DNA of 23,939 nt from a virus. Under the pieces are notes generated by a model. That model saw only the letters and a list, made by a program, of their open reading frames with translations, had not been told where the DNA came from and did not search any database. A program made the translations under genes and the position numbers. Shown here in pieces: positions 823 through 23,939 of the stretch (positions are counted from its first letter, which is position 1; every line of letters starts with the position of its first letter). The stretch lies in the IMG/VR virus record IMGVR_UViG_3300046780_000512, positions 1 to 23,939 of that record. One strand, 5' to 3'.

Positions 823-1026
823 GTGTACAAAAATTACCTACAGGTATATAGTTGTCCCTTCTTGCCCCTCCCCGACAATACTGCCGCGCTGGCACTTGCC
901 GTCTTACGCCTCACCTGCCTCCGGTGTCATTGGGAGTGGACTCGCCGCAAGCCTGTGCTGCCAACCATCTGCCCAAAGTGCAAGTCGAAGCTCTGGGACG
1001 TGCCACGTAAAGAAAAGGTCGCATGA
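823..1026 (+). CDS. Small zinc-ribbon protein upstream of the replication gene
   Basis: The frame opens with GTG at 823 (no good ribosome-binding site, so the start is uncertain) and ends TGA at 1026. This overlaps the ATG of the next gene as ATGA, implying coupled translation. The product is about 67 aa. Two cysteine pairs, CLRC near residue 31 and CPKC near residue 51, are separated by a basic and aromatic loop (HWEWTRRKP). This is the layout of a small zinc ribbon that binds nucleic acid or protein. The first 25 residues look poorly constrained, so the true start may be further in. Its position suggests a replication accessory or regulator, but that is inferred from context only. Confidence 0.55.
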   Translation: MYKNYLQVYSCPFLPLPDNTAALALAVLRLTCLRCHWEWTRRKPVLPTICPKCKSKLWDVPRKEKVA

Positions 1027-3095
1027 CATCACGCGGCATCGTCGAGTCCTACTTCGCCAAGCGCTTCCAGGTCGTCTTCTGGCCGGCCGTCGGCGACCAG
1101 AAAGGTCCGAAGGAGAAGGACTGGCCACGTCGACCGGCGACGCTAGAGCAGTTCACGGACGGCGACCGCGTCGGCATCCTGACGGGCATTGAAATCTCCG
1201 CTGGCAAGTTCCTCCACGACGTCGACATCGACTGGGCCCCAGGCTACCAGATTGCCGCCGCCTTCCTGCCGAAGACCGAGTTCATCTACGGTCGCGCCTC
1301 GAAGCGTGTCAGCCACTGCTTCTATACCCTCCCCGAAGCCCTCGCCTGCATCCAGTACAAGGATCCCATCGACGGCGCGATGCTGATGGAGGTGCGCGGC
1401 GTGAAGGCCGACGGGTCGATCGGCTTCCAGTCGATGGCGCCGCCATCGATCTGGTCGAAAGGTGACAAGCGCGAGCCGCTCGAGTTCCGCGCTGAGGGCA
1501 TCCCCGCGCACTTCGAGGGCGTGAAGCACTTCCTCCAGCGCGTGACGCTCGGTGCCGTCGGCATGCTGCTCGCCAAGCGCCTCGGTCACAACGGATTCGG
1601 CCACGAGGTTCGGCTGGCGTGGGCCGGCTTCCTGCTCCGCGCCTCGATCCCGCCCGAAGACCTTGTCGCCATGGGCGAGGTCATCTCCACCCACTGCAAC
1701 AACCGCGAGGTCGTTGACGTCAGGCAGGTGGTCGAATCGACGGCCGCCGCCCTCGCCGCCGGCACGAAGAAGGTCAAGGGTGGGCCGGCGTTCGCGAAGC
1801 TGCTGGGCGACAAGCGCATCATCGAGCAGATCAACGCCTGGCTCGGCCGCGACTCCGACTTCATCCGTACGCCCGACGGGCTCATCGTCAAGGACAACCA
1901 GCTGAACGTCCGCCGCGCCGTCGCGCTGATCGGCATCGAGCTCAGCTACCAGGAGTTCGCCGAGCGCATGCTCGTCTCGGAAGATGGCAGGCCGCCGCGT
2001 CCGCTCGACGACCGCACGCTCAACAACGTCTGGCTTCGCATCGACCGCGAGCATCACTTCCGGCCGTCGTTCACCTTCTACGAGAAGGTCATCACCGATG
2101 CGGCCTATGACAACGGCTTCCACCCGGTCCGCGACTACCTATCTTCGCTTACCTGGGATGGCGAGCCGCGCATCAACACGTGGCTGTCTCAGTATGGCGG
2201 CGCCGAAGAGCAGACCGAAGGCTCCGAGACGCAGACCTATCTTGAGGCCATCAGCAGCATCGTCCTGATCGCCGCCGTCCGGCGCGCATTCCACCCAGGT
2301 TGCAAGTATGACGAGATGCTCGTCCTCGAGAGCCAGCAGGGCTTCAACAAGTCGGGCGCGCTCAGGGCGCTCTGTCCTCAGGATGAGTGGTTCTCAGACG
2401 ACCTACCGCTGAACGTCGACGCCAAGGAGATCATCGAGCGCACGCTCGGCAAGTGGATCATCGAGGCGTCAGACCTGGTCGGCGGCAGGAAGGCCGACCG
2501 CGACCACCTCAAGTCGATGCTCAGCCGCCAGATCGACGGCCCGGCACGCATGGCCTACGCGCACATCCCGGTCGAGCGGCCGCGGCAGTTCATCATCATC
2601 GGCACGACGAACAATAACGAGTACCTTGCAGACGCGACAGGCGCGCGCCGGTTCTGGCCGATCAAGGTCGGACGCTTCGACGTCGAGGGGCTCATCAAGG
2701 ACCGCGATCAGCTATGGGCCGAGGCCGTGCACCGTGAGGCCGCAGGTGAGTCCATACGACTGGCCGAGGGGCTGTGGAGTGCGGCCGGCGCGCATCAGGA
2801 GCAGCGACGATCGGTCGACGCGTGGGAGGAGATCATCCAGGACGTGCTGGAACAGCTCGTGCCGGCCTCGAACGGAGCCGTCCGGATCGCGACGAGCAAG
2901 GTCTGGGACGCGCTCGGCATCGAGGCAGCCAGGCGAGACCTACTAGGTGCGAAACGCATCGCGGAGATCTTGCAACGCTTCGGATTCGAGCGGACGAGAA
3001 TCATGGTCGACGGGAAGACGCAGGTCGGCTATTCGAGGTCGACACCCCTCTCCGATTACAAATCTGTAATCAGTAACACGCCAGACCTAATGTAA
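1023..3095 (+). CDS. PrimPol-VapE replication protein (primase-polymerase fused to SF3-like ATPase)
   Basis: The 690-aa product has two recognisable parts. Residues about 1-200 resemble a bifunctional primase/polymerase domain: acidic metal-binding residues in HDVDIDW (D66, D68, D70) and a downstream SKRVSHCFY segment with H98. Residues about 360-600 match the virulence-associated protein E (VapE) ATPase: a P-loop-like LVLESQQGFNKSG near 434-446, a Walker B-like KWIIEASDL, and a sensor/arginine-finger region GTTNNNEYLADATGARRFWP near 527-544. The P-loop is degenerate, with Asn before the Lys-Ser. The last 90 residues look like a winged-helix DNA-binding tail. By family knowledge such fusions prime and unwind phage or satellite DNA. 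It is coupled by ATGA to the zinc-ribbon gene, and a repeat-rich region follows its stop. Confidence 0.85.
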   Translation: MTSRGIVESYFAKRFQVVFWPAVGDQKGPKEKDWPRRPATLEQFTDGDRVGILTGIEISAGKFLHDVDIDWAPGYQIAAAFLPKTEFIYGRASKRVSHCFYTLPEALACIQYKDPIDGAMLMEVRGVKADGSIGFQSMAPPSIWSKGDKREPLEFRAEGIPAHFEGVKHFLQRVTLGAVGMLLAKRLGHNGFGHEVRLAWAGFLLRASIPPEDLVAMGEVISTHCNNREVVDVRQVVESTAAALAAGTKKVKGGPAFAKLLGDKRIIEQINAWLGRDSDFIRTPDGLIVKDNQLNVRRAVALIGIELSYQEFAERMLVSEDGRPPRPLDDRTLNNVWLRIDREHHFRPSFTFYEKVITDAAYDNGFHPVRDYLSSLTWDGEPRINTWLSQYGGAEEQTEGSETQTYLEAISSIVLIAAVRRAFHPGCKYDEMLVLESQQGFNKSGALRALCPQDEWFSDDLPLNVDAKEIIERTLGKWIIEASDLVGGRKADRDHLKSMLSRQIDGPARMAYAHIPVERPRQFIIIGTTNNNEYLADATGARRFWPIKVGRFDVEGLIKDRDQLWAEAVHREAAGESIRLAEGLWSAAGAHQEQRRSVDAWEEIIQDVLEQLVPASNGAVRIATSKVWDALGIEAARRDLLGAKRIAEILQRFGFERTRIMVDGKTQVGYSRSTPLSDYKSVISNTPDLM

Positions 3096-3284
3096 TAGAG
3101 GTAATTAGGGTAATATTCCGGGCAATATTACTGGATTACCGATAGTTACACCTTCCCCCAGAGTTTATTTCTGCGTCTTCGGACTTCCCTACTTGTTTTA
3201 TCTTTTATAGATAGGGTAATAAGTGTAATAGAGGTTAACTCAGAGAGGAACAGTAGCACTTAACTGACTACGCTCTATTACCCT
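3055..3284. repeat. Cluster of GTAAT/ATTAC repeats (candidate iterons)
   Basis: The pentamer GTAAT or its complement occurs ten times in about 230 bases: GTAAT at 3066, 3092, 3101, 3110, 3216 and 3225, and ATTAC at 3055, 3127, 3135 and 3277. Longer units recur: TGTAATAGAGGT at 3091 and 3224, and AGGGTAAT at 3107 and 3213, both matched by one inverted stretch at 3273-3284. Fewer than one copy of the pentamer would be expected by chance. The cluster lies in the 3096-3346 non-coding A+T-rich gap downstream of the replication gene and upstream of the packaging operon. That position suits a replication origin or a control region. I see no convincing promoter or terminator in the rest of the gap. 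Confidence 0.5.
3110..3131. repeat. Perfect inverted repeat in the repeat-rich gap
   Basis: GTAATATT (3110-3117) and AATATTAC (3124-3131) are exact inverted arms around the loop CCGGGC. The hairpin begins 15 bases after the stop of the VapE gene and is built from the repeat units of the surrounding cluster. No T-run follows, so it is not a standard Rho-independent terminator. A protein-binding site or origin structure is more likely. Confidence 0.5.
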
Positions 3285-4914: not shown

Positions 4915-5144
4915 ACAAGGTCGAAGAGGCTTATACACTCGCCAGGCGCAGCGTGGAAGCTGTCGGCAATCTAGTTGACCTGGAGAAGCGGCGCATCGGT
5001 GCCCTGTCGATCGTGCTCATCGAAAAGGACGGACAGTACTTCAGCGGCTTCTGCACGAACATCGAGATCGCGTCACTAGTACCGCTCGTGCGTTCGTGGC
5101 TGGCGAACCGTGAAGAGGAGCTGCTTGGAGTGGTGGTGAACTGA
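4911..5144 (+). CDS. 77-residue protein between terminase and portal
   Basis: The gene is locked between neighbours by an ATGA overlap at its start and TGATG at its end, so it is almost certainly translated. The N-terminal half is helical and charged (KVEEAYTLARRSVEAVGNLVDLEKRR). The second half alternates hydrophobic residues as in a small beta sheet (ALSIVLIEKDGQYFSGFC, then IASLVPLVRSWL). There is no membrane segment or signal peptide. Position suggests a packaging or portal accessory protein. I do not recognise the family. Confidence 0.65.
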   Translation: MNKVEEAYTLARRSVEAVGNLVDLEKRRIGALSIVLIEKDGQYFSGFCTNIEIASLVPLVRSWLANREEELLGVVVN

Positions 5145-7165
5145 TGGCCGCCAAACCCGAAGGCGTCCTCAAGTCCCTCACCTCGGTCCTCCTCGAGCGC
5201 TATCGCTTCTTCCGCCAGGCGGGCGTCAGCTTTGGCGGCGCACGCGACCTCTACGCGGTGCTCGGCTACCAGCGCATCCTCCAGTATCTCGACTACCGCC
5301 TGCGGTATCAGCGCGGTGGCATCGCGAAGCGCATCGTCGAGGCCTATCCGAAGGCCACGTGGCGCGGCGGCGTGGAGCTGTACGAGGACGAGGACGCCGC
5401 GAAGGATACGGCGTTCGAGGAGGCGTGGAAGTCGATCCAGGATCGCCTGAACGTCTGGTCACGCCTGCAGGCCGCCGACATCCTGGCCGGCCTGAGCACG
5501 TTCTCCGTCCTCCTCATCGGCGCGCCTGGCGAGCTTGAGACCGAGCTGCCGCGCGGCACGTCGCCGGACAGGCTGCTCTACCTCCAGCCCTACTCAGGCG
5601 GCGGCGGTCCGCCCACGTCCAACACGCTGCTCATGCAGAACCACACGCAGGGCCTGGACTCGGACTGCTCGATCAAGAACTTCGACGTCGATCCCAAGAG
5701 CGTCCGCTTCGGTGAGCCGCTGACCTACCTGCTTCGCCGCACGGATATCAACCTACCGGGGCAGATGCGCGAGATCCATTGGTCGCGCGTCATCCACGTG
5801 GCCGAGGGCTGCCTCGACGACAACGTCTACGGCATGCCGACGCTGGAGAACGTGTGGAACCTGCTTGATGATCTGGACAAGGTCACCGGCGGCGGCGCTG
5901 AGGCGTTCTGGCTGCGCGCGAATCAGGGCTTGCACCTGGACGTCGACAAGGATATGGGGCTGCCTGGTTCCACGAGCGCTGGGCTGAGCGCCGACGAGCG
6001 GAAGGTGCTGCACGAGAAGGCCGAGGAGATCCAGCACCAGCTGCAGCGCGTCCTGGTCACGCGCGGCGTGACCGCCACGCAGCTCGGCTCGGACGTTGCC
6101 AACCTCGGACCGAACGCTGACGCGATCCTGAAGCAGATCGGCGGCAGCAAGGGCATCCCGACACGCATCCTGACGGGTTCGGAGATGGGGCAGCTGGCCA
6201 GCGGTCAGGACGCCGACAACTGGCGCACGCAGGTCCAGGACCGACGGACGAGCTATGCGGGGCCGATGATCGTGCGGCGGCTCGTCGACAGGCTCGTCGA
6301 GTACGGCTACCTGCCGAAGCCGAAGCAGTACGACATTGCGTGGCCTGTCGAAGAGGATATGTCGGAGCTGGACAAGGCGACGCTCGCGCTCACGCTGACG
6401 AATGTCAATAAGAACTACGGCAGCGACGTGTTCGACGCCGACTTCATCCGCGAGAAGGCGTACAAGCTCGAGCCGCTCGAGGAGCTGCCGCAGTGGGAGT
6501 TCATGTCGGAGCTGGACAAGGCGACGCTCGCCACGAAGCTGGCGATGGTCAACAAGGAGATGGGCATCACCGTCTACACGGACGACGAGATCCGCGACAT
6601 GTCGTTCGGCAAGGCGCCGCTCACAGACGCGGAGAAGGTGCCGATCGGGGCGCCCGAGCGCATCAGCGTGACGCAGCCGCCGGAGCTGGGGGCGGACGGA
6701 CAGCCTATACCACAGCCCGCGCTGCCGAACACGCCGGAGATCAAGGCGGCGCTTAGGGCGCTGGAAGAGGCGATCGAGGCGGACGATGCGGAAGCCATCC
6801 TGAAGATACTTGGTGACGTGCCCGGACATGAGTTCCACGGGAATCAGTGGACCGAAGGCGGCGCGACGGGCATGATCTTTAAGGAGTACGCTACGACAGG
6901 TTATGGACCTGGCGAGCGTGGGGCTGAGAAGGCTCGTGCCGCCGCGCAGGAAGCGCACAAGGCACTGACGAAGGCTGGCTTCGTGAAGGCGGCACCGACG
7001 GAGCATAAGCATATCGCCGGCGAGAAGATGGGCAGGTCGCAGGCGTATTATTCCAGCTCGAAGAAGTCGACGACCGAGTATGCGCATCCCGACGGGCGAA
7101 AGGCATCGTTGCAGGCCACGTACGAAAAGACTAGCAACAGCAGCGTTCGTGTGAAACATTCATGA
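5144..7165 (+). CDS. Portal protein (DUF1073/gp6-like) with fused C-terminal module
   Basis: The 673-aa product follows TerL and a small gene. Residues about 20-440 read as a DUF1073-type portal: RILQYLDYRLRYQRGGIAKR near the start, a beta-rich middle, HWSRVIHVAEG, and the helical ILTGSEMGQLASGQDADNW region. It should form the dodecameric ring through which DNA enters and leaves the head. Two features are odd. Residues 406-453 and 454 onward are an imperfect tandem duplication beginning MSELDKATLA. At residues 557-570 comes GDVPGHEFHGNQWT, after which an unrelated basic domain of about 103 aa is appended (571-673; HKALTKAGF near the middle, YAHPDGRKASL near the end). That layout loosely recalls a HicA/dsRBD-like fold, a weak impression only. 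The stop overlaps the next ATG (ATGA). Confidence 0.85.
   Translation: MAAKPEGVLKSLTSVLLERYRFFRQAGVSFGGARDLYAVLGYQRILQYLDYRLRYQRGGIAKRIVEAYPKATWRGGVELYEDEDAAKDTAFEEAWKSIQDRLNVWSRLQAADILAGLSTFSVLLIGAPGELETELPRGTSPDRLLYLQPYSGGGGPPTSNTLLMQNHTQGLDSDCSIKNFDVDPKSVRFGEPLTYLLRRTDINLPGQMREIHWSRVIHVAEGCLDDNVYGMPTLENVWNLLDDLDKVTGGGAEAFWLRANQGLHLDVDKDMGLPGSTSAGLSADERKVLHEKAEEIQHQLQRVLVTRGVTATQLGSDVANLGPNADAILKQIGGSKGIPTRILTGSEMGQLASGQDADNWRTQVQDRRTSYAGPMIVRRLVDRLVEYGYLPKPKQYDIAWPVEEDMSELDKATLALTLTNVNKNYGSDVFDADFIREKAYKLEPLEELPQWEFMSELDKATLATKLAMVNKEMGITVYTDDEIRDMSFGKAPLTDAEKVPIGAPERISVTQPPELGADGQPIPQPALPNTPEIKAALRALEEAIEADDAEAILKILGDVPGHEFHGNQWTEGGATGMIFKEYATTGYGPGERGAEKARAAAQEAHKALTKAGFVKAAPTEHKHIAGEKMGRSQAYYSSSKKSTTEYAHPDGRKASLQATYEKTSNSSVRVKHS
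6359..6531 (+). repeat. In-frame tandem duplication in the portal gene
   Basis: An exact 29-base match occurs at 6359-6387 and 6503-6531, offset by 144 bases (48 codons). Around it the protein copies share MSELDKATLA, then VNK, then an (A/T)DxIR(E/D) segment. The conserved DNA stretch suggests a fairly recent duplication or selection on this segment. Confidence 0.7.
6812..6853 (+). repeat. Junction motif copy in portal (GDVPGHEFHGNQWT)
   Basis: Residues 557-570 of the portal. The motif is followed by EGG and a 103-residue appended module. The codons for His-Gly-Asn-Gln are CAC GGG AAT CAG, sharing the GGGAATCA core with all other copies. Confidence 0.85.
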
Positions 7166-9786
7166 CCCCTCAACTCGCCGCCCAGCTGCTCCTCACCGCG
7201 CACCGCAACGTGCGGATGCGGCAGCTCGGCGATCTGCCAGGGCATGAGTTTCACGGGAATCAGTGGACGGCGAAGGTGGGTGATCTGAATGATTTCCCGC
7301 ATCTAGCTGCCTTGCGAAAAATTGCTAATGACCCCCGCATTGCGGAGATCGAGGGTGGTGGGTTAGATAGTGGAAGAGTATTCTTGCATGCTTCTTTAGG
7401 GTGGCTTTTCGGGGAGCAGCGTTCAAAGTCTGTCGGAAGCCGTGAAGAAATTAAACAGGCCATGAAGCTATTGCGTCATGAGGTGCCGAAGACGCTCGGA
7501 GATCTGCCCGGCCACGAGTTTCATGGGAATCAGTGGACAGCGTATCACGGAACGACAGCTGAGAACGCAGCGAAAATTTTGAAAGAAGGGCTCAAGCCAG
7601 ACAAACAGGGGGACATCTGGACGACGACGGATCTAATTGAAGCGAGAACCTACGCGCGTGCCGCAGGTAATAATTCCGTGATCTTAAAGATCAATGTACC
7701 TGCGCATGATACGACGAAGTATGACGAACGTAAAGGTGGCAAAACGCTTCGCGTATATAAGGAACCACTCAAAGCTGAATACGTGTCGATGCATTCCGCG
7801 CATGTCAGCGGCGGGCCTTTTGGAGAATGGAAGACACTCTCCGCCATCCCCGTCTCCTCCCGCGACCTCACCCCGCTCCACAAGGCCGCCGACGCGCACT
7901 ACGCGTCCATCATGCTCGCGGTGAGCGCGGCGTTCATGAGGGGGAAGAAGGCGCTGAGGGCGAGCTTGCGAGGAGCGGAGTTCAATCCTGATGAACCGCG
8001 TGATGAGAAGGGGCAATGGACGAGCGGCGGCGTTCAACCAGAAGAAAAGGCGATCGCTGAGCGTCTTGGGCTGCCGACGACCTATAGCGGTACGGACAGC
8101 ATGACGTCTCTTAGCGGTCGTTTGAATCCGGAGTCAGCTCGTGCCTACTTTGCGGGTAAGGCAGTTGATAACCCGATTCCGAAGAACAAGACGCTGACGA
8201 TGGAGCAAGCTCAGAGGTTGCCCATCATGATGAGCGGCGAGACGAAAGAGGTTAGTATCGCGCCACTCAGGTCAACGCAAGACTACATCCAACCGAGTGC
8301 TGTTGAAAAGTATAAGAACGGCGAAGGGATGACCTCGCGTCCTGTCGTCGCCACGATCCACGGCGAAGAAGTGCTGTTGAACGGCAATCATAACGTGTTG
8401 GCGGCGCAACTACGAGGCCAGGACACGATCAAAGTTCAGCACCTTGGCGACTTCTCCAAGCATGCCGACTATATCAAGAAGGTCGACGCGCAAGGCGGCG
8501 GATTTACGTCGTTATCTGCTTCTCCGAACATCTCCGCAGCGGTCTCCGCCATCCGCGCCTCGCTCGTCCACGACCTGCCGCCGGCGCTGGAGAAGGCGTA
8601 TGTGGCGGGTGGGGGAACGGTTGGCGGGTTGAAGGCTGCCGGCGACGTCGAAGGGCATCCGTTTCATGGGAATCAGTGGACGGAAGGCGGCGGTACGACG
8701 CGCGAAGAGAAGATCGCTCGCATCAAGGAGATCAACACGCAGCTGAAGCCCATCCTCTCTTCAACTGGCGGCAACCTGACGGCAAAGCAGGCGCTGCAAG
8801 TAGAGAAGATGACTGGCGAGATTCAAGGGCACTCGTTTGACATTGCGAAGCCTATCACGCCTGAGAAGGTTGCTGAGAACATCGCAAAAGCTGGCGGCAC
8901 AGCAGCGCAGAATACGATGAAGCCGGAGACGATCGCGGTGGCGCAGCACGACCTCCTGCAGAACAAGGACGTCTACTCGGCTATCACGAAGTCTGCGACG
9001 GGTTCTTGGTTCAATCGCGATACACCCATCGACGACATCATGAACGGCAAGAACCCGAAGGTGAGCGCAGACCAGTTCCGTGCGACGTTCGAGAAGACGC
9101 GCGAGACGCTGCGAGCACAGTATGGCGACAAGGTGCCAGCATATCGGGCCACAACCAATCAGAGGTCCAAGGCGACGCAGAACTGGGCGACGACTCGAGA
9201 GTTTGCTGCCAACTTCGGCAAGAATATCGTGGAGCGTAGCATTCCGATCAGTTCTATCATCGGAGCGAACGTTGGCTTGCGTGGCACATATCACGAGTTG
9301 ATCGTTGATGCGCGAGAGATTAGGGGCGCTGCTACTAAATTCAAGATGCAGTTCGACGCCAAGAACTCTAACGCCGCCACCTGGGCCCTGACGCACGCCA
9401 CGCAGATCGCCGACGACATCAGCCAGACCTCGAAGGACAACATCGCGCTGGCCGTCGCGCGGGCGCAGGAAGAGGGCGACCTCGGCGAGCAGTACGACGA
9501 GATCCTGGACGCCGTGGGCGACGAGGCGCGGGCCTCCCTGATCGCGCGCACCGAGTCCATGACCGCCGTCAACGAGGGGCAGCGCGATGCCTGGGACCAG
9601 GCGCTCGAGAAGGGCTTGCTGACGGAAGACAACCGCGTCGTCTGGATCGCCACGTCGGATGCCTGCCCGGAGTGCGAGGAGCTGGACGGCGAGGAGCGGA
9701 CGCTGGACGGCGAGTATCCTGGGGACGGTGGAGACGGTCCTCCTCTCCACCCAAATTGCAGGTGCACGGAAGGGATCGTAGGATGA
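7162..9786 (+). CDS. Head morphogenesis protein (Mu F/SPP1 gp7-like) with several inserted effector-like modules
   Basis: The 874-aa protein is more than twice the usual family length. The Mu F-like core appears in pieces: residues about 237-272, about 453-493, and about 728-874 with CPECEELDG and the terminal HPNCRC (H863). Between them lie extra modules. Residues 37-112 are an unrecognised domain after motif copy 23-36. Residues 127-235, after copy 113-126, resemble an ADP-ribosyltransferase (AYHGTT with H129, Y164, then EPLKAEYV). Residues 288-450, after PRDEKGQWT (279-287), are ParB-like (PVVATIHGEEVLLNGNHN, 394-411). Residues 508-725, after copy 494-507, resemble an R-S-E ADP-ribosyltransferase (YRAT R662, NWATT 674-678, HELIV E712). 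The core normally links portal and capsid. The modules may be cargo; that is inference. The start overlaps the portal stop. Confidence 0.85.
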   Translation: MTPQLAAQLLLTAHRNVRMRQLGDLPGHEFHGNQWTAKVGDLNDFPHLAALRKIANDPRIAEIEGGGLDSGRVFLHASLGWLFGEQRSKSVGSREEIKQAMKLLRHEVPKTLGDLPGHEFHGNQWTAYHGTTAENAAKILKEGLKPDKQGDIWTTTDLIEARTYARAAGNNSVILKINVPAHDTTKYDERKGGKTLRVYKEPLKAEYVSMHSAHVSGGPFGEWKTLSAIPVSSRDLTPLHKAADAHYASIMLAVSAAFMRGKKALRASLRGAEFNPDEPRDEKGQWTSGGVQPEEKAIAERLGLPTTYSGTDSMTSLSGRLNPESARAYFAGKAVDNPIPKNKTLTMEQAQRLPIMMSGETKEVSIAPLRSTQDYIQPSAVEKYKNGEGMTSRPVVATIHGEEVLLNGNHNVLAAQLRGQDTIKVQHLGDFSKHADYIKKVDAQGGGFTSLSASPNISAAVSAIRASLVHDLPPALEKAYVAGGGTVGGLKAAGDVEGHPFHGNQWTEGGGTTREEKIARIKEINTQLKPILSSTGGNLTAKQALQVEKMTGEIQGHSFDIAKPITPEKVAENIAKAGGTAAQNTMKPETIAVAQHDLLQNKDVYSAITKSATGSWFNRDTPIDDIMNGKNPKVSADQFRATFEKTRETLRAQYGDKVPAYRATTNQRSKATQNWATTREFAANFGKNIVERSIPISSIIGANVGLRGTYHELIVDAREIRGAATKFKMQFDAKNSNAATWALTHATQIADDISQTSKDNIALAVARAQEEGDLGEQYDEILDAVGDEARASLIARTESMTAVNEGQRDAWDQALEKGLLTEDNRVVWIATSDACPECEELDGEERTLDGEYPGDGGDGPPLHPNCRCTEGIVG
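7228..7269 (+). repeat. Junction motif copy 1 in head protein (GDLPGHEFHGNQWT)
   Basis: Residues 23-36, immediately after a 22-residue N-terminal leader. It introduces the first extra module. Contains the GGGAATCA core. Confidence 0.85.
7498..7539 (+). repeat. Junction motif copy 2 in head protein (GDLPGHEFHGNQWT)
   Basis: Residues 113-126. The protein sequence is identical to copy 1, but several codons differ synonymously. It ends the first module and introduces the first ADP-ribosyltransferase-like domain with no linker. Confidence 0.85.
7981..8031 (+). repeat. Second-type junction motif (PRDEKGQWTSGG)
   Basis: Residues 274-290 of the head protein, beginning FNPDEPRDEKG. It introduces the ParB-like module. 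It ends GQWTxGG like the other motif type (GNQWTEGG), and its DNA GGGCAATGGACG resembles the other copies with the AAT codon missing. Confidence 0.65.
8641..8682 (+). repeat. Junction motif copy 3 in head protein (GDVEGHPFHGNQWT)
   Basis: Residues 494-507, followed by EGGG and the second ADP-ribosyltransferase-like module. It differs from the others at V, E and P but keeps GH-FHGNQWT and the GGGAATCA codon core. Confidence 0.85.
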
Positions 9787-9816
9787 TAATGACCTTCACG
9801 AGCGGGGTGCTCAACG

Positions 9817-10167
9817 GTGCCACGGCCTCATGAACCTCACGAGTCGGACTACGTCGTACGGTACAGCGGTCCTGAACGTCGGAACGGCATTGGCAATGGC
9901 GACTGGACGTCGCTCAAGGCGTGGGCGAACGCGATCGGGATCATCGGCATCCCAGGCGCCATCGCTATCTATCTCGTCTACATCGGCGCGACGGAGATGC
10001 CAAAGTTGGTAGTCAACAGTTCACAGGCGATCGTCGAGATTCAGAAGACGCGCGACACGCTCCGTGACCATATCGTGCAGACGGACATCCTCATTCGTGC
10101 CATCGAGCGGACGTGCGTTGGCGTCGCAAAGGACTCCGATGCTAGAGCGAGATGCCTTGATAAGTAG
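9817..10167 (+). CDS. Small membrane-anchored protein with coiled-coil tail
   Basis: The frame starts at GTG 9817 and gives 116 aa. A short polar N-terminus containing GPERR leads to one hydrophobic helix at about 37-57 (NAIGIIGIPGAIAIYLVYIGA). A helical tail follows (AIVEIQKTRDTLRDHIVQTDILIRAIERTC), ending in a charged segment. No start-proximal ribosome-binding site is strong. The last 29 bases overlap the next gene in another frame. It is the first of a run of six tiny genes between two head genes. A membrane role in lysis or DNA ejection is possible, but no family is recognised. Confidence 0.6.
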   Translation: MPRPHEPHESDYVVRYSGPERRNGIGNGDWTSLKAWANAIGIIGIPGAIAIYLVYIGATEMPKLVVNSSQAIVEIQKTRDTLRDHIVQTDILIRAIERTCVGVAKDSDARARCLDK

Positions 10168-10513
10168 TACCTGGAAGGGGTGGATCTGGCGCGTCGGGGT
10201 GGCGCTGGTCCTGTGCTTGTGGGCCATCGTCGGGCTGGAGGCCGCGTTCAGCATCCGCGTCATCTATACGAACGCCGCGCAGATCGCGGAGGTCAACAGC
10301 GAGATCGTCGAGATGCAGAAGATTCACAGCTCGAAGATGAGCGAGATGTCTATGCGTCTCGACATGCTCGAGAAGGTCCTGTTCGGCGACGTGCTGTCGA
10401 AGATCGCCGCGCAGCCGAAGGGCATCGAGACGTGGCAGCAGAATCGGGACAGGGAGATGCGCGAGCGGATCAGCAAGCTGGAACTCTGGCGTCTGCATCA
10501 GGACGCGCGATGA
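10139..10513 (+). CDS. Small membrane protein with coiled coil
   Basis: ATG at 10139 is preceded by AAAGGA at good spacing, so I prefer it to the longer frame that opens upstream. The product is 124 aa: a basic, tryptophan-rich N-terminus (TWKGWIWRVG), one membrane helix at about 17-37, and a long helical tail with heptad-like spacing (IAEVNSEIVEMQKIHSSKM, then MRLDMLEKVLFG). The topology parallels the preceding protein (one membrane helix, then a coiled coil), so the two could act together in the envelope. They are not obviously homologous in sequence. Function unknown. Confidence 0.65.
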   Translation: MLERDALISSTWKGWIWRVGVALVLCLWAIVGLEAAFSIRVIYTNAAQIAEVNSEIVEMQKIHSSKMSEMSMRLDMLEKVLFGDVLSKIAAQPKGIETWQQNRDREMRERISKLELWRLHQDAR

Positions 10514-10514
10514 C

Positions 10515-10700
10515 ATGTCTCTCGATCGCGGACAGGGCGACAAGAAAAAGTTTCCGGCCAAGGACCTTGAGCGGCTCTACAAGAAGGGTATCGAGCAGCA
10601 GAAGATTCGAGGCGATCAGTTGAACGCGATTATCGGCGGGAAGGTCTACGACCCGGACGCCTGGTACGACGTCACCGAGAAGGGTGTCGAGAAGTTGTGA
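10515..10700 (+). CDS. 61-residue basic protein
   Basis: Starts at ATG 10515, one base after the upstream stop. The product is highly charged and basic near the start (MSLDRGQGDKKKFPAKDLE), helical in the middle (RLYKKGIEQQKIRGDQ), and ends with a DPDAWYDVTEKGVEKL tail. No cysteine pair or membrane segment. Its stop overlaps a GTG start (GTGA). Unrecognised, but compact packing supports a real gene. Confidence 0.55.
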   Translation: MSLDRGQGDKKKFPAKDLERLYKKGIEQQKIRGDQLNAIIGGKVYDPDAWYDVTEKGVEKL

Positions 10701-10849
10701 CATGGGCATACCTGGCCGTGGCGTTCGTGGCAGGATATTGTGCAGGGCTGAGCAGGGCACGGCGGCTCATTCGTCAGTTGACAGAAGACTTGAAACGTAG
10801 CGCAACGAACTTACAGGGCGCGGTTGACGCGCAGAAGGATACCAGATGA
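10697..10849 (+). CDS. 50-residue membrane peptide
   Basis: The gene starts with GTG overlapping the previous stop (GTGA) and ends TGA overlapping the next ATG (ATGA). The product has a short hydrophobic N-terminus (MTWAYLAVAFVAGYCAG), then a basic, helical tail with SRARRLIRQLTEDLKR. It is either a tiny single-pass membrane protein or a secreted or lipid-associated peptide; a cysteine sits at residue 15. Overlaps on both sides are the main reason to call it real. Function unknown. Confidence 0.55.
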   Translation: MTWAYLAVAFVAGYCAGLSRARRLIRQLTEDLKRSATNLQGAVDAQKDTR

Positions 10850-11067
10850 TTCTCGATGATCTCAAGGTGCAGGTGACGGCGACGACGGATGTGGAAGCCT
10901 CTGCCGTGGTGGCGCTCAACGGTGTAGCAGCTCGCATTCAAGCGGCCGTGGACGCGGCGATCGCGGGCGGCGCGACGGCGGAGCAACTGGCTCCGGTGCA
11001 GGCCGAGGTCGACGCACTGAAGGCATCGTCAGACGCGCTGGCGGCTGCGGTCGTGGCGAATACGTAG
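10846..11067 (+). CDS. 73-residue coiled-coil protein
   Basis: ATG at 10846 overlaps the upstream stop. The sequence is dominated by Ala, Val, Asp and Glu in helical repeats (ALNGVAARIQAAVDAAI, then LAPVQAEVDALKASSDALAAA). It is an acidic amphipathic coiled coil without cysteine. Many phages carry such small structural or scaffold-associated coiled coils near head genes. The specific role is not visible. Confidence 0.6.
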   Translation: MILDDLKVQVTATTDVEASAVVALNGVAARIQAAVDAAIAGGATAEQLAPVQAEVDALKASSDALAAAVVANT

Positions 11068-11074
11068 ATGAGTC

Positions 11075-11260
11075 ATGGGCCGGAGGCAGCGCTATTCGAC
11101 TCCGGATCAGGATGCCTTCATCTATACGCTGCAGGTAGAACTGGTGGCGCTTGAAGACGCTCTTACCATATTGGAGCGCAGAATCATGCTACTACGAGAC
11201 CGAGTGCAAGAGGAACTGGCCAAGAGGTGGGGCAAGGAATGCCCCGTGAAGAAGGCTTGA
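11075..11260 (+). CDS. 61-residue coiled-coil protein
   Basis: Starts ATG 11075, shortly after the previous stop, and ends two bases before the next gene. After a basic start (MGRRQRY) most of the protein is one predicted helix (AFIYTLQVELVALEDALTI, then LERRIMLLRDRVQEELAKR). There is only weak upstream ribosome-binding sequence. Likely a dimerising structural accessory protein; family not recognised. Confidence 0.5.
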   Translation: MGRRQRYSTPDQDAFIYTLQVELVALEDALTILERRIMLLRDRVQEELAKRWGKECPVKKA

Positions 11261-11261
11261 T

Positions 11262-13511
11262 ATGCCAAATCGTCCTGAGCATACCGACAAGATGAAGGCC
11301 TGCGTGGCGAAGCTTCAGGACACGCATGATGATTCGTCTGCCTACGCCATCTGCACGGCGTCGTTGCAGAAGGCTGGCGAGCCGGTCTTCGTGGGGGCTG
11401 CGGCCGGTGGTGCGGAGGAGATGAGGCTGCTGGGCGATGTTCCTGGACATGAGTTCCATGGGAATCAATACACTGGTGAAGGCGGGGCTGCAGCACGTCA
11501 AGAACGCATCAAAGAAATTGACAAGCAGATCACAAAGATAGCCGTGGGTCCCAATACGCCCCGCGCAATCAAAGAACGCATGCAGAAGATCGCCCCTTTG
11601 GTTCAAGAGCAAGAACTGCATAAAAATGTTCTTGACCCTACGCGGCCACAAGCCATCTTAGCTTCCTCAAAATTGACAAAGCGCTCGGATGGCGGATATG
11701 ACGTACAGCATGAAGGCGCGAAGATTGGAGCGCTGGAGCCGGTAAGTTTCACTGGATTCAAGGCCGTTAACAGTGCGCAGCAGATGACCAGCCGCGAGGG
11801 GTTCAAGGCGCTATACGGCGACAAGATCGTCAACTCGCAAGGTACTCGTAAGGAAGGGCACGAAGCGATCGCGAGAGCGCACTCAGACGTATTGAGAACC
11901 CGACTTACTGGCGCTGAAGGTTATGTATTTGACGACGTCGACATAACTTCTCTGCGTACGCTCCACCTCGTCGGCGCCACGGGCGTCGTGCGCACGGAGA
12001 TGTTCGAGGGCCGAGAGCACCTCGTCGTGCCGCTCATTGCGCTGATGGAGGGCGTCATCCACGCCATGAATGCCGAGACGCCGGAGTTCGTGCCGCTGGC
12101 CACGCTGCAGAAGGCTGCGGCGACGTGGAACGGTCGCCCTGTTACTCTCGGTCACCCATCGCGTGGCGGGGTTCAGTGCTCGGCCAACGACCCCGGCATC
12201 CGTGAGTCGCATGGCATCGGCACGATCTTCAACTCGCGCGTCGTGGGCACGAAGCTGCTACAAGAGGCGTGGATCGACAAGGCGAAGGCGAAGAGGCTTG
12301 ACCCGGCGATGCTCGCGCGCCTCGTGACAGGCGAACGCGAGGAGGTCAGCGTCGGGGCGTTCGTCATCACGGACGGCACGATGGGCAGCTACAGGGGCAA
12401 GCCGTATCGCGCGCAGTGGCTGGAGACGATCGGCGATCACCTCGCGTTCCTCCCCGGAGGGCGCGGCGCCTGCTCCGTGGAGATGGGATGCGGGACGCAC
12501 CGGGCCGCGATGCGGATGTTAGGAGGATCGATGGAACTGCTGGGATCGATGCCGGACAAGGCGCAGGTCGAGATCAACAAGCCTGGTCATCCTGCGCACG
12601 GCAAGAAGGGCAAGATCACGTCGTCGAAGGGCGACATGCATACTGTCGGCGATTATGGCACGTTCAAGCAGTCGGAGTTGAAGGCTGCAGCGGATGGCGA
12701 GGAGGCCGCCGAGCTTGTCGGCTACAACCTGCTGCGCACGCACCTCGACACGATGGGCAAGGCGTGGGACGAAGCCTCCGGCATCGTGAACGAGCTGGTC
12801 GCCGACGAGACCGAGAACCCAACCGAGACGGCTGCGGAGGAAGATGCCGAAGAGGAGGTCGAGTCGGCACGGCTTGACTCTGTCATGTCTCTGATGTCTG
12901 TCATCATGGCGATCGCGTCGCAGGCCATGTCGTGCTGTGCGGTCATGAATGCGCCGGAGGCGACAGACGTCATGCCGCGCTACGGGGCGATGCCGATGAT
13001 GCCCTGCCCGACATGCGACGGCACTGGTCAGGTGAAAGATGGCAAGCAGTCGGACTGCCCAACGTGCGACGGCACGGGCGAGGTCGCCAAGTTCAAGGCG
13101 GCAGCTGGTTCACGGCATAACAAGAACGACCAGCAGATGGTTCAGGCAATTCACGATCAAGCTCAGGCGCTGGGTGCGCAGTGCGACCGGGCGAACTACA
13201 AGATGCTCCGCGACATCTCGCAGAAACAACGCGAAAGACTTCCGGATGCAGATTTCGCTGGCAAGGGCACGTCCTTTCCCATCAAGAAGCCGGAGGACGT
13301 GTCGGCGGCAGCGAGTTCAATCGGTCGGGCGGGCGCGGGCAACTATTCGACGGACGAGTTGAAGGCGAACATCATCAGGATTGCCTACCGGAAGGGTGCA
13401 TCGTTCGTCGCGCAGCTCCCGGAGGCATGGAAGAAGAAAGCGGATCACAAAGCAGCAGCAAACGATCCAAACCGATTCTACATCGAGTCGGTTCTCAAGG
13501 GTGTACGATGA
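11262..13511 (+). CDS. DUF2213-type head maturation protein (putative protease) with inserted module and zinc-finger pair
   Basis: The 749-aa product is a mosaic. Residues 7-38 form a small cysteine-bearing domain (HTDKMKACVAKLQ, then SSAYAICTASL). The junction motif GDVPGHEFHGNQYT is at 58-71, followed by an unrecognised A+T-richer insert of about 145 aa. From about 216 a DUF2213-like domain follows, with candidate catalytic residues in TLGHP (H298) and EEVSVGAF (S363) and the family-like GDHLAFLPGGRGACSVEMGCG around 392. A small KOW/SH3-like segment lies near 436-476 (KPGHPAHGKKGKI). Two DnaJ-like CPTCDGTG units occur around 583-607, with a conserved-looking C-terminal domain beyond 640. 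Family context suggests prohead protease function. The C-terminus overlaps the next ATG. Confidence 0.75.
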   Translation: MPNRPEHTDKMKACVAKLQDTHDDSSAYAICTASLQKAGEPVFVGAAAGGAEEMRLLGDVPGHEFHGNQYTGEGGAAARQERIKEIDKQITKIAVGPNTPRAIKERMQKIAPLVQEQELHKNVLDPTRPQAILASSKLTKRSDGGYDVQHEGAKIGALEPVSFTGFKAVNSAQQMTSREGFKALYGDKIVNSQGTRKEGHEAIARAHSDVLRTRLTGAEGYVFDDVDITSLRTLHLVGATGVVRTEMFEGREHLVVPLIALMEGVIHAMNAETPEFVPLATLQKAAATWNGRPVTLGHPSRGGVQCSANDPGIRESHGIGTIFNSRVVGTKLLQEAWIDKAKAKRLDPAMLARLVTGEREEVSVGAFVITDGTMGSYRGKPYRAQWLETIGDHLAFLPGGRGACSVEMGCGTHRAAMRMLGGSMELLGSMPDKAQVEINKPGHPAHGKKGKITSSKGDMHTVGDYGTFKQSELKAAADGEEAAELVGYNLLRTHLDTMGKAWDEASGIVNELVADETENPTETAAEEDAEEEVESARLDSVMSLMSVIMAIASQAMSCCAVMNAPEATDVMPRYGAMPMMPCPTCDGTGQVKDGKQSDCPTCDGTGEVAKFKAAAGSRHNKNDQQMVQAIHDQAQALGAQCDRANYKMLRDISQKQRERLPDADFAGKGTSFPIKKPEDVSAAASSIGRAGAGNYSTDELKANIIRIAYRKGASFVAQLPEAWKKKADHKAAANDPNRFYIESVLKGVR
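11433..11474 (+). repeat. Junction motif copy in DUF2213 protein (GDVPGHEFHGNQYT)
   Basis: Residues 58-71. It is the only copy with Tyr in place of Trp, and its codons differ most (AAT CAA TAC ACT), yet CATGGGAATCA is retained. It introduces an unrelated module before the main domain. Confidence 0.8.
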
Positions 13512-19321: not shown

Positions 19322-19653
19322 GCGACAAATCTATTCGCGCTGTCGCAATCGACGATCCGATCTGCCCGATGTGCCGGACACCGACACTCGGCGTTGATGA
19401 GGGCATTGGTCGCTCGGCATATGAATCCGATGTAAGCGAAGAAGGTGAAGATGAGATGCTCATCACGACTACGATGTGGTGGAAGACGCGCTGCCACACG
19501 TGCAAGACGTCCGTTGAGCGGCATTTACTTGGCGTGGTCGGTTGCCAAGAGGGAGGCTTTGAGCCTAACGTGTCCGAGGAAGTTGAACCGACACCTCACG
19601 GTCTCATCATCAAGGAACTGCGCGAGCTGAAGGAAAGTTTGGCGGTGAAGTGA
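19318..19653 (+). CDS. 111-residue zinc-ribbon protein in the modification cassette
   Basis: ATG 19318 overlaps the previous stop (ATGA), giving 111 aa; the frame opens earlier but this start is better supported. Two CxxC pairs, C16-C19 (CPMC) and C59-C62 (CHTC), separated by about 40 residues rich in acidic residues, would coordinate one zinc ion. A helical C-terminus follows (GLIIKELRELKESLAVK). The arrangement suits a small adaptor or nucleic-acid-binding protein. Its stop overlaps the next ATG as TGATG. Confidence 0.6.
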   Translation: MSDKSIRAVAIDDPICPMCRTPTLGVDEGIGRSAYESDVSEEGEDEMLITTTMWWKTRCHTCKTSVERHLLGVVGCQEGGFEPNVSEEVEPTPHGLIIKELRELKESLAVK

Positions 19654-21014
19654 TGGACATCCGCACAATCACCGAACTCTCCAAGCTACTCGGCTCTCGA
19701 CGCCCGAAGAGCGTCTACGAGATTGGCAGCCTGAACATCAACGGCAGCGTCCGGACCCTCTTCCGCGACGCGAAGGAGTATCACGGCATCGACATCGTCG
19801 AAGGCCGGGATGTCGATACAGTCGGCTACGGCTCGACATATGAACCTCCGTTTCGCCCCGACTGCGTCGTATGCTGTGAGGTCTTCGAGCATACGCCTGA
19901 CACTGAGGCGATTGTCAATCAGATGGCGAAGCTCGTCGTCCCTGGTGGCATCGTCCTGATCTCCTGTGCCGGGACACAGCGTCCGCCGCACAGCGCGGTA
20001 GATGGAAAGGATCTGCCGGATGACGAGTACTACGCTGGCATCGACCATCTGGTGCTGACCGAATGGCTGAAGGCAGCAGGCCTCGTCAACCTCCGGCTGA
20101 TCATCGGCTGTCTGCCGGATACGACAGACCCGGATACCCAGGGCGTGCACGACATCTACATGATCGGGCAGAAGCCGATTGGCGCTTTGGCCAATCCGTA
20201 CGACCCCGTCACGATGGGATCGTCGGCCGCGAATGCACCGCCGGCAGACATCGCCACGCCGAAGCAGCTGACGGTCGTCGAGCAAGGCAAGACGACTCTC
20301 GAAGAGCTCGCGCAGTCCGTGCTCGATACGCGGGAGAAGTACGGCGAGGTTCTCCAGGCTTACCACGAAGTCTGGTACAACGCGCCGCATACGTGGAGCT
20401 ACACGCAGTTCCTGAATATCGGGGTCATGAAGTCGCCTAACGACATGTGGATCTATCAGGACATCATGGTGAACCACAAACCGCAGACGGTCATCGAGAC
20501 CGGGACGTATCAGGGAGGTTCGGCGCTGTGGCTTGCCTCGCTTGCCGACCTGATGGGGATCGACACGAAGATCTTCACCATCGACATCAAGGACTTCCGG
20601 CGCTGTGCGCATCCACGCATCACGTTCATCCGCGGCGACTCGACAGATCCAGGATTGGCGGCGGACTTGGCCAAGCAGGTTGAAGGATCGCTGCTGGTGA
20701 TCCTCGACGCGGATCATTCTGCCGAGCACGTGCGAAAGGAGCTCGAGCTGTACGCGCCGCTCTGCAAGGTCGGCGACTGGCTCGTCGTCGAAGATACGAA
20801 CATCGCGTGGCCTGGCGAGCAGGGCGACCGCGGTGCAGCAGGAGGGCTGGCCGACTACCTCGCGCAGCATCCTGGCGAGTGGCAGCAGGACATCTTGTCC
20901 GAGCGGTTCCTGTTGACGATGAATCCCGGCGGGTGGATGCGCCGCGTCGGCGTGTACAGGGAGTTTTACTACGAAGGCGAACTACAGAAGCAGCAGCTGG
21001 AGAGTGTGAAGTGA
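19653..21014 (+). CDS. Fused methyltransferase and CmcI/rhamnosyl O-methyltransferase-like protein
   Basis: The 453-aa product has two enzyme-like halves. Residues about 18-175 resemble a class I SAM methyltransferase (VYEIGS at 21-26, then CCEVFEHTPD near 74, and LVVPGGIVLISCAG). Residues about 260-440 resemble the CmcI/cephalosporin-hydroxylase family, also seen in sugar O-methyltransferases: PNDMWIYQDIMV, then VIETGTYQGGSALW (around 280), LDADHSAEHV (around 351) and VVEDTNI. A flexible Ala/Pro linker joins them. It may methylate a sugar or peptide product, perhaps together with the following glycosyltransferase-like gene. ATG 19653 overlaps the upstream stop; substrate not visible. Confidence 0.75.
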   Translation: MDIRTITELSKLLGSRRPKSVYEIGSLNINGSVRTLFRDAKEYHGIDIVEGRDVDTVGYGSTYEPPFRPDCVVCCEVFEHTPDTEAIVNQMAKLVVPGGIVLISCAGTQRPPHSAVDGKDLPDDEYYAGIDHLVLTEWLKAAGLVNLRLIIGCLPDTTDPDTQGVHDIYMIGQKPIGALANPYDPVTMGSSAANAPPADIATPKQLTVVEQGKTTLEELAQSVLDTREKYGEVLQAYHEVWYNAPHTWSYTQFLNIGVMKSPNDMWIYQDIMVNHKPQTVIETGTYQGGSALWLASLADLMGIDTKIFTIDIKDFRRCAHPRITFIRGDSTDPGLAADLAKQVEGSLLVILDADHSAEHVRKELELYAPLCKVGDWLVVEDTNIAWPGEQGDRGAAGGLADYLAQHPGEWQQDILSERFLLTMNPGGWMRRVGVYREFYYEGELQKQQLESVK

Positions 21015-22260: not shown

Positions 22261-22510
22261 CAACATCGGCATCGCTGACCTTGTCTTCGTCGAGATGCAA
22301 GAATGCGCACCACTCGATACCGTTATTGAAGAACAGGTGCATTCAGTAGACGCCGTGCACCCAAGCAACGTGCTCGCCGGCACGACGCACCGTGACTGTG
22401 GTGGAATCGTGCGCTGGGAATATGAGTCGGACAAGCCTGTCGAGTTCGGGCAGGCGCGGTGTAAGAAGTGCGGACAGGTGGTGACCGTGCGAGGCGCGCT
22501 AGTTGGCTGA
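22250..22510 (+). CDS. 86-residue zinc-ribbon-like protein
   Basis: ATG 22250 lies inside the end of the preceding gene; TTG 22232 is an alternative. GGAAGG upstream offers a ribosome-binding site. The N-terminal half is acidic (IGIADLVFVEMQECAPLD). The C-terminal half looks like a one-sided zinc ribbon: HRDCGGIVRWEYE, then CKKCGQVVTV. A third cysteine occurs near the N-terminus. The stop overlaps the start of the large repeat protein by 8 bases. A small regulatory or assembly zinc protein is possible; no family is recognised. Confidence 0.6.
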   Translation: MSTDNIGIADLVFVEMQECAPLDTVIEEQVHSVDAVHPSNVLAGTTHRDCGGIVRWEYESDKPVEFGQARCKKCGQVVTVRGALVG

Positions 22511-23939
22511 TCTCTCAGTAGTCGTCGTCGCCGCGACGCTGGCCCTCTCGGAGACTGTCTCCCCGAGCGGCCTTGGCAGTCGCACCCGGTTCTACTTCCC
22601 GAACAGTGGGACCGCGGCCGTTTCGCCGTCCGCAGGGACAGGCTGGAACGACACGACGCAATTCGATCGAGTCGCCCTCGCTCGCTCGCACAAGAACGAA
22701 ACGGCGGTTACGAAGACTGAGATCTTCAACGGGTCAGTCCCGGCGAAGGTGCTCATGCGGCAGTTCGTCTCCGAGCCTATCTCTGCGCAGGTCATTTCCG
22801 GCTCAGTCAAAGGCCAGCTGCAAGGGCTTACGAGTCAGGTCGCGAAGCTGGGCAACGTAGCCGTTGCCATCCGCATCGTCAAGAACGACGGGACGGATTA
22901 TAACCCCGTCAAAGACCTGATTCAGACGCCAGCAGCCGGCGATCTGGTCGCCGCTCCTCCGCAGTTTAGCACGACGCTCACGAACCGCTCCCTGAACAAC
23001 ATCAGCGAGCAGGTCGGCATCGGTCTGACTCCGCAGACGGCAGTTGCTGGAGACCGGATTGTCATTGAGCTGGGCGTGCTGGACACGGTTGCCAACGCGT
23101 CGAGAACGCTCGGACTCTCGTTCGGCGGGACGACGATCACCGACCTCGCCGAGGACAACACCACCACCACCGTCAACTATCCGTGGATCGAGTTCAATAC
23201 TCCGATCCTGATGGATCCGATTGAGCTGCTCAAGCTCTCGGAAACCGTCACGGCAAAGAGGTATGGCGATGCCACGCCTGCGAATGAAGTCCTCCGACTC
23301 TCGGATACGGTCACCGTCACGCGCGATCTTGAGACGGGAGGGTTCGACGAGACCCTGCGGTTATCGGACGTAGTTTCGTCAGCGCTACAGCTGGCCGTCT
23401 CAGTCGGGTCAGAAACCTTACGCATAACTGATACCTCAACTCCTGCGATAGAACTATCGACGTCCCTGACGGAGACGTTCCACCTTGGTGATGGTGGTGC
23501 GGTCAACCAACAAGGTATCGTCCGACTTGAAGGCGTCCTTCGCGTCATAGATGGTCCGCCCGTCGCGGAGCTAGGCTTCTTCGTCGGTCCGGAGGTTCTT
23601 GTCCTCTCGGATACGGTCGCTGCCGCGTTAACGAGCGGCGCTAGTGATCTTAATGCCTCCGGATTTGATGAGACGCTCAAGCTCTCCGAAAGCGTTCAGA
23701 CAACACTCGATCCGCTGCAGGCAAGCCCCTCAGAGATCATTCACGTTTCGGATTCCGTCCAGACGCTGCTAAATCCGCTGCAGGCGTCGCAGACGGAAAC
23801 GCTGAAGCTGACGGATACCGTTCAGGCGCAGCTTGATACGCTACTCGTATCGCTCTCCGAGACGCTCAAACTTTCTGATGCAGTTTTTGCGTCGACCGAC
23901 GCACTGAGCGCGTTACTTCAGGAGACGCTGAAGCTCTCA
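22503..23939 (+). CDS. Large repeat-bearing structural protein (tail or fibre), C-terminus beyond window
   Basis: The frame begins at TTG 22503, directly after an in-frame TAG and with GAGG upstream, and stays open for 479 codons to the last base. The N-terminus (ADLSVVVVAATLALSETVSP) and residues up to about 235 resemble a virion-domain fold (RTRFYFPNSGTAAVSPSAG, then GIGLTPQTAVAGDRIVIELG). From residue 241 to the edge it is a tandem 21-residue repeat with the pattern E-x-L-x-L-S-(D/E)-(T/S)-V, seen twelve times. Repetitive beta-like units suggest a long fibre or adhesin. There is no stop in the window, so length and attachment domain are unknown. Start codon uncertain. Confidence 0.75.
   Translation, partial: MADLSVVVVAATLALSETVSPSGLGSRTRFYFPNSGTAAVSPSAGTGWNDTTQFDRVALARSHKNETAVTKTEIFNGSVPAKVLMRQFVSEPISAQVISGSVKGQLQGLTSQVAKLGNVAVAIRIVKNDGTDYNPVKDLIQTPAAGDLVAAPPQFSTTLTNRSLNNISEQVGIGLTPQTAVAGDRIVIELGVLDTVANASRTLGLSFGGTTITDLAEDNTTTTVNYPWIEFNTPILMDPIELLKLSETVTAKRYGDATPANEVLRLSDTVTVTRDLETGGFDETLRLSDVVSSALQLAVSVGSETLRITDTSTPAIELSTSLTETFHLGDGGAVNQQGIVRLEGVLRVIDGPPVAELGFFVGPEVLVLSDTVAAALTSGASDLNASGFDETLKLSESVQTTLDPLQASPSEIIHVSDSVQTLLNPLQASQTETLKLTDTVQAQLDTLLVSLSETLKLSDAVFASTDALSALLQETLKLS
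23223..23939 (+). repeat. Tandem 63-bp (21-residue) protein repeats
   Basis: Unit starts (Glu codon) occur at 23223, 23286, 23349, 23412, 23472, 23529, 23592, 23670, 23733, 23796, 23859 and 23922. Eight of eleven spacings are exactly 63 bases; the others are 57, 60 and 78. The unit is ETLKLSDTV-like followed by a variable linker. The array runs past the right edge. Confidence 0.85.

Follow-up and report, generated by a model that had tools for sequence, protein, structure and literature searches.

The internal head proteins of phage T4, among them the ADP-ribosyltransferase Alt, are directed into the head by a short N-terminal leader carried by diverse proteins, and these propeptides both target and are cut, with residues 4 and 7 acting in targeting and residues 8 and 10 in processing (parts of PMC9026906). 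In phage P1 the Dar proteins are packaged as well, the first 30 residues of DarB being sufficient to carry a reporter into the head (PMC9024508, section 3.3). Furthermore, MuF and portal proteins fused to ADP-ribosyltransferase (ART), PBECR, 2H and other effector domains are predicted to be packaged and injected, and the portions consulted of the corresponding articles describe no shared boundary tag (PMC5512222, PMC3482391, PMC5576092). Here we describe a peptide tag of about 21 residues found in a virus record of IMG/VR (23,939 bases; this whole stretch of DNA is called the window), where it stands on a portal protein, a MuF-type minor head protein and a DUF2213 protein. The context of the tag inclines us, on balance, to regard it as a portable head-cargo tag working like the capsid-targeting sequences of T4 and P1.

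The likeness to the T4 targeting sequence (IPI, IPII, IPIII and Alt, as described in sections of PMC9026906) lies in a leader at the N terminus of internal head proteins that are diverse and poorly conserved. The T4 sequence has about 10 residues, is N-terminal and is cut by gp21, whereas the tag has about 21 residues and a near-invariant core, is also internal and repeated, and is fused to portal, MuF and protease proteins; the two are likened by description and not by aligned sequences. With the polymorphic MuF toxins and polyvalent proteins the system has in common the effector domains on MuF and portal proteins and their predicted delivery, and it differs in that one tag unites portal, MuF and protease fusions with standalone cargo. 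The unusual feature is this single peptide, common to fused and standalone cargo across many phages; otherwise the system would combine a capsid-targeting sequence with polyvalent effector fusions.

The tag and its modules in the window and in close relatives

A scripted motif search over the genes and the six frames of the window located the core GHxFHGNQ[WY]T at 6824-6853 in the portal gene, at 7240-7269, 7510-7539 and 8653-8682 in the MuF gene and at 11445-11474 in the DUF2213 gene, with no further copy in the six frames. Since GD begins 12 bases before the core, the start of the first copy at 6812 is right. An original prediction made on this DNA had claimed five copies of the 14-residue motif GD(L/V)xGHxFHGNQ(W/Y)T and one of a second motif, PRDEKGQWT (RDEKGQWT at 7999-8022), each directly before an extra domain. 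All six lie where it had placed them, and comparison with close relatives bears out their position ahead of extra domains in the three proteins.

The portal core (Phage_portal_3; residues 1-556; 5144..6811, on the + strand like all window features given with coordinates in this section) matches PF06381 (E=2.7e-19) and a PHROG portal profile, and is followed by tag 1 (GDVPGHEFHGNQWT; 6812..6853) and a cargo domain (residues 571-673; 6854..7162). The portals of two relatives, L262 and L118, are 97-98% identical to that of the window over residues 1-556 and end two residues past the point where the latter continues with GDVPGHEFHGNQWT and its 103-residue domain; tag and domain are also present in a further relative, L054. 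A domain similar to this cargo (43% over 77 residues) occurs behind another boundary motif, GCNQHTGPGC (residues 51-61), in a DUF2213-like protein of L350 (4539-6608).

In the DUF2213 protein (749 residues; 11262..13508; PF09979, E=5.4e-8; PHROG head maturation protease, E=6e-6), tag 5 (GDVPGHEFHGNQYT; 11433..11474) precedes an N-terminal cargo module (residues 72-230; 11475..11951). In L262 and L054 a few residues stand instead of residues 58-230, a segment that again starts at GD; the flanks are 81-98% identical, and L054 bears a different tag and domain (about 93 residues) at another site of the same protein. Ahead of the module site, the N terminus of the DUF2213 protein (11262-11432) holds a short segment, SSAYAICTASLQ, which is kept in L262, L054 and L068.

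The MuF-type protein (874 residues; 7162..9783) has four module boundaries: tag 2 (GDLPGHEFHGNQWT; 7228..7269), tag 3 (also GDLPGHEFHGNQWT; 7498..7539), the second boundary motif PRDEKGQWT (type III; 7996..8022) and tag 4 (GDVEGHPFHGNQWT; 8641..8682). Its core (residues 721-874; 9322..9783) contains the PF04233 match (residues 760-869, E=4.3e-12) and is 96% identical in L262. Tag 3 precedes a KptA/ART-like domain (slot 2; 7540..7836) with a weak PTS_2-RNA match, below cut-off (E=0.001), and this slot holds other cargo in L118, with a 3′ flank 94-100% identical. As judged from these alignments, the unit that is gained or lost at the portal site and the two DUF2213 sites is the tag plus its module, beginning at the GD of the tag.

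The core of the DUF2213 protein (11946..12560) was modelled with nine relatives (predicted local distance difference test score, 77.7). T4 gp21 (5jbl) was the sole PDB entry matching this model at E<=0.001 (best E 1.2e-5, probability 1.00), the predicted model has the assemblin fold, and H70, S135 and D164/H165 of the modelled stretch are invariant in 10 of 10 aligned sequences. These are candidates for the catalytic His-Ser-(His/Asp/Glu) residues of such proteases. Sequence identity to gp21 is 15% and DUF2213 is a separate Pfam family. By its gp21-like predicted fold, this third carrier is probably a head maturation protease of the assemblin type, and DUF2213 probably a family of head maturation proteases.

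Alignment of up to 362 copies on the core, from non-redundant open reading frames (ORFs), revealed that the 14-residue motif is part of a 21-residue element, [VIL]xKG[DE]xxGHxF[HR]GNQ[YW]TxGxG. Outside the search pattern, G is conserved in 93% at position −4, D/E in 98% at −3, K in 62% at −5 and V/I/L in 72% at −7, and on the C-terminal side of the core T is found in 49% at +9 and G in 56% at +11. Conservation fades past −7 and about +15, so that the element is short and linear, with about 21 residues. The GH-FHGNQ core is written in 153 distinct DNA encodings among 253 copies of the H form, and selection thus acts on the peptide. In a standalone tagged protein of 219 residues (L015), the model has residues 1-27, comprising the leader and most of the tag, disordered and the remainder well folded, with a predicted GNAT acetyltransferase fold (the Pfam match is weak); no PDB chain matched the tag peptide. 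At the level of these sequences and this single model, the tag appears as a disordered peptide of about 21 residues that is kept at the amino-acid level and precedes exchangeable modules. An amphipathic leader helix gave a modest signal (z of 3.9 in N-terminal leaders and of 3.4 in the stretches upstream of internal copies) and was not used as support.

Distribution, carriers and genomic context

Exact DNA scans for GHxFHGNQ, in which loci include overlapping or related contigs and counts are lower bounds, returned at least 119 stretches from IMG/VR and at least 118 from GTDB genomes. Tag context, defined as G/K then D/E at −4/−3 plus W, Y, F or H after Q, was present in 222 of 232 matches and 109 of 119 loci of IMG/VR, among the matches listed, vs 1 of the 120 GTDB matches listed (L183). 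Apart from L183, the GTDB matches, which concern the FHGNQ form only, are by our estimate near chance for a 33-bit pattern and were rejected as evidence of prophages. A second form, GHxFRGNQ plus Tyr, was found in at least 120 IMG/VR stretches. The 242 sequences, window included, hold 422 distinct contexts (234 FHGNQ, 180 FRGNQ and 8 other). When 42 virus records chosen for holding the tag were searched whole, the pattern was present in 42/42 and the backward pattern in 0/42, so that the motif is not due to chance; up to 21 copies occurred in one contig of 67.6 kb. Uncultured phage contigs thus contain the tag frequently; in bacterial genomes and cultured phages it is seldom encountered. One FRGNQ-form peptide, the only one queried, gave no match in plasmids. 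The tag strings of all three types described below were not found in published text, in a search with most subscription papers and preprints outside it, and at the level of titles and listings the literature on capsid-targeting sequences with effectors and on DUF2213 yielded nothing on the motif.

After removal of exact duplicates, 324 ORFs carry the tag, and 253 of them are closed ORFs with 352 copies: 137 lie within 45 residues of the start, 212 are internal and 3 lie close to the C terminus, two of them in a variant form. A single N-terminal tag is found in 110 of the 253 closed ORFs, where it forms an N-terminal leader on small standalone proteins of diverse cargo; six ORFs in L282 and L325 start with MGD[KR].GH. 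With 212 of 352 copies internal, the tag is not confined to protein ends as a targeting sequence would be, nor is it unrepeated, since one ORF fragment of 2371 residues (L253) holds eight; in portal, MuF and head-protease proteins it sits between domains.

Carriers and cargo were identified by Pfam scans of 225 of the 245 non-redundant tag ORFs (those of up to 1,100 residues), run in two halves with the best 25 of 37 and of 36 families; a protein can be counted under more than one family, and the matches listed leave many tag ORFs without a match. Among these matches, the carriers are MuF (11) and three portal families (12: Portal_Mu 7, Phage_portal_3 at least 4, Phage_portal 1), so that effector domains are fused to MuF and portal proteins here as well, and proteases (DUF2213 4, Peptidase_S78 1, Peptidase_S78_2 2, Mu-like_Pro 1). 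The cargo listed comprises ADPrib_exo_Tox (7), ART-PolyVal (5), PI3/PI4-kinase-like (5), NUDIX (4), Zeta toxin (3), PBECR (3), PTS_2-RNA (2), 2′-5′ RNA ligase (2), Acb1 (1), HipA-like (1) and DarA_N (1). The carriers of L008 and L292, encoded upstream of the major capsid gene, are identified by PHROG profile as HK97-type prohead proteases; that of L008 is above the S78 cut-off and that of L292 is without a Pfam match. In L003 (19-1539), the tag (913-936) stands within a Mu-like_Pro profile match (811-1383), as would result from insertion of a module into the protease itself. The 422 modules form 230 cargo clusters, including 160 singletons, which excludes the possibility that the motif belongs to one conserved domain with unchanged flanks. 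The largest cluster (29 modules by single linkage, some seemingly unrelated) is a domain with FYxAGGxI..., present in L253, L015, L045 and others, both fused and standalone, and is GNAT by fold in L015.

Placement was analysed in 14 records whose portal had been located, in 12 by Portal_Mu and in two by kinship with the window's portal. Of 116 tags, 113 are on the portal strand and 90 are on that strand in the 25-kb zone downstream of the portal, vs 33.4 expected under uniform placement, tags within one genome not being independent in this statistic. The count leaves out 5 of the 17 records with Portal_Mu above cut-off (G031, G024, G007, G008 and G033); for the H form only, the tags within the zone are 9/9 in G031, 5/5 in G024, 6/13 in G007 and 2/8 in G008. 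Second tag clusters far off the portal were observed in G026 (880-3157), G064 (90-98 kb), G018 (22-33 kb) and G006 (15-33 kb).

A tblastn search with tag peptides, for which BLAST is weakly sensitive at such short query lengths, identified one convincing carrier among 50,697 cultured phages, Xanthomonas phage Rb1. Its gp56 (1221 residues) contains LDGDFSGHPFRGNQH and is labelled "internal head protein" near a gene labelled defense against restriction A, both being depositors' annotations. The N-terminal part of gp56 matches a DarB-like PHROG, among others, and one tag ORF matches DarA_N, which likens the system to the Dar proteins. The two differ in that no consensus among Dar N-termini is reported in the part consulted of PMC9024508, and no P1 record was among the tag-peptide matches in cultured phages.

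The same phages also use two further tag types, type II (GGPGSGNFGHAGRPGxxGGS) and type III ([HP]RDExG[RQ][WF]T), as well as hybrids such as KGGPGSGxxxGHxFxGNQYTGG. Comparison of L258 and L261 with L338 revealed type I where type II had stood, the upstream sequences being alike by eye and the cargo 94% and 87% identical, and types III and I precede homologous cargo in L086 and L313 (61% over 241 residues). This swapping before homologous cargo suggests that the tags share a function. A broader proposal, which we put forward tentatively as a possibility short of probable, is that types I, II, III and hybrids are a few head-cargo tags able to stand in for one another. They would serve as one loading code shared by unrelated families of portals and proteases, and effector modules could then pass freely from one phage to a distant one, attached to any head protein or standing alone.

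Proposed docking, possible processing and other explanations

Portal, MuF protein and head protease are proteins facing the head interior. In the proposed mechanism, the tag would dock each module, whether fused to one of these three or made as a small protein of its own with a tagged N-terminal leader, to a partner inside the procapsid, in the manner of T4 and P1 targeting. A docked module would be packaged and delivered along with the DNA, and the enzymes and toxins would then act in the host. The original prediction had offered either a packaging tag that makes attached domains capsid cargo or a recognition site for the head maturation protease. We retain the former, in view of the portal, MuF and head-protease carriers, the clustering of tags downstream of the portal, cargo resembling phage-delivered effectors and a cultured carrier annotated as an internal head protein; the latter is not supported. 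Since one and the same tag accompanies four protease families and is also found near protein ends, we prefer docking to cutting, although a combined role in docking and processing, by analogy with T4, may apply.

Proteins carried in phage heads are hard to find, and a sequence tag would allow them to be listed from genomes alone; the cargo clusters would be a rich source of candidate proteins for anti-defence and host takeover in uncultured phages. A portable loading signal, if the tag is one, would also help to explain the spread of modules between unrelated phages and offer an easy means of having phage particles deliver proteins.

Several observations weigh against a head-cargo tag. Portal and MuF fusions should need no targeting signal, and yet their tags are intact: internal copies score like N-terminal ones with a position-specific scoring matrix (52.0, n=234, vs 53.3, n=114), a finding more in line with a function for each module than with targeting of the whole protein. 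Each module thus seems to need its own tag, a need that a cutting site would explain more simply. Some tag clusters are distant from the portal (26 of 116 tags outside the zone, together with the low counts inside it in G008 and G007), and no shared partner gene emerged, clusters of non-tag ORFs reaching at most 14 of 134 locus groups, with many loci being fragments. The tag match of Rb1 is statistically weak (E 0.8; 1e-3 with a query modelled on its relatives) and its label stands as deposited, and some cargo families are not obvious effectors (topoisomerase IB, CDO_I, ChaB, pentapeptide repeats).

The alternative that survives best, unlikely but to be taken seriously, is a processing site, at which the head maturation protease or another protease would cut each tag and free the modules from portal, MuF, protease and polyprotein carriers in the head. 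The eight tags of the L253 fragment fit such a polyprotein, the window's DUF2213 protein looks gp21-type, head proteases carry the tag, and T4 propeptides both target and are cut (sections of PMC9026906). Moreover, the matrix scan of tag ORFs gave 348 strict and 11 intermediate copies vs 0 in shuffled sequence, the scanned ORFs having been fetched because at least one intact copy lay nearby; several of the 11 are of the hybrid type, decayed copies are thus rare in tag ORFs, and the internal copies seem to matter. Against cutting, a cleavage site would be expected to vary with the protease family of each phage, and the same tag is found with DUF2213, S78, S78_2 and Mu-like_Pro, which should differ in specificity. 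Within 47 tag records, S78_2 was above cut-off in 14, Mu-like_Pro in 6 and both in 0; S78 was found in L008; and DUF2213 occurred in 5 of 42 tag records of a separate set, a group made up of those five or close kin of the window. Cutting at the earliest tag, 5 residues from the N terminus, or at that lying 13 residues from the C terminus in one ORF, would free little, and the six-frame search of the window showed no tag in the major capsid protein or the scaffold candidate. Known head-protease sites include LxE, compared with which the 8-9 near-invariant residues of the tag core are long. The same is true in comparison with the site AxE, as given in part of PMC10052503.

An improbable alternative is that the tag is a mere junction linker, or a recombination joint for domain shuffling, with no binding function. 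It lies where modules meet, its C-terminal side is rich in Gly, and there is reassortment between heads and cargo (1378 pairs alike in head or leader only, 500 in cargo only and 94 in both, counts that related contigs inflate). However, a joint at the DNA level is ruled out by the free codon variation, and a linker would have no need to keep GHxF[HR]GNQ[YW], would not be expected at protein starts, and would not be replaced by another tag type before cargo 87-94% identical.

Finally, a tag acting after injection, recognised by a host chaperone, protease or membrane component that would refold, release or place each module, would be independent of virion type, in line with the occurrence of the same tag with several portal and protease families and with its intact internal copies, but it is very improbable given that the hosts may be diverse (a Xanthomonas phage; WhiB-like genes, by eye, in 9/134 locus groups) and that no host partner was suggested by any analysis here.

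Further observations on tag loci and the window

The WhiB-like and Dps-like genes (named by eye; for instance at L302 3976-4368 and L305 2351-2809, each kind in 9 of 134 locus groups) are a hint of actinobacterial hosts for some tag phages. A PHROG scan of ten ORFs of L282 and L325, two of them tag ORFs, gave one head morphogenesis protein and one thymidylate synthase, and nothing for the other eight. For the portal, MuF and DUF2213 proteins of the window, PADLOC returned no match. Elsewhere in the window, a protein at 22503-23939 has ETLKLSDTV-like units roughly every 20-35 residues (by eye; no DNA tandem repeats were found), and a single protein at 19650-21011 contains two methyltransferase-like parts (Methyltransf_23 and RMNT_CmcI).
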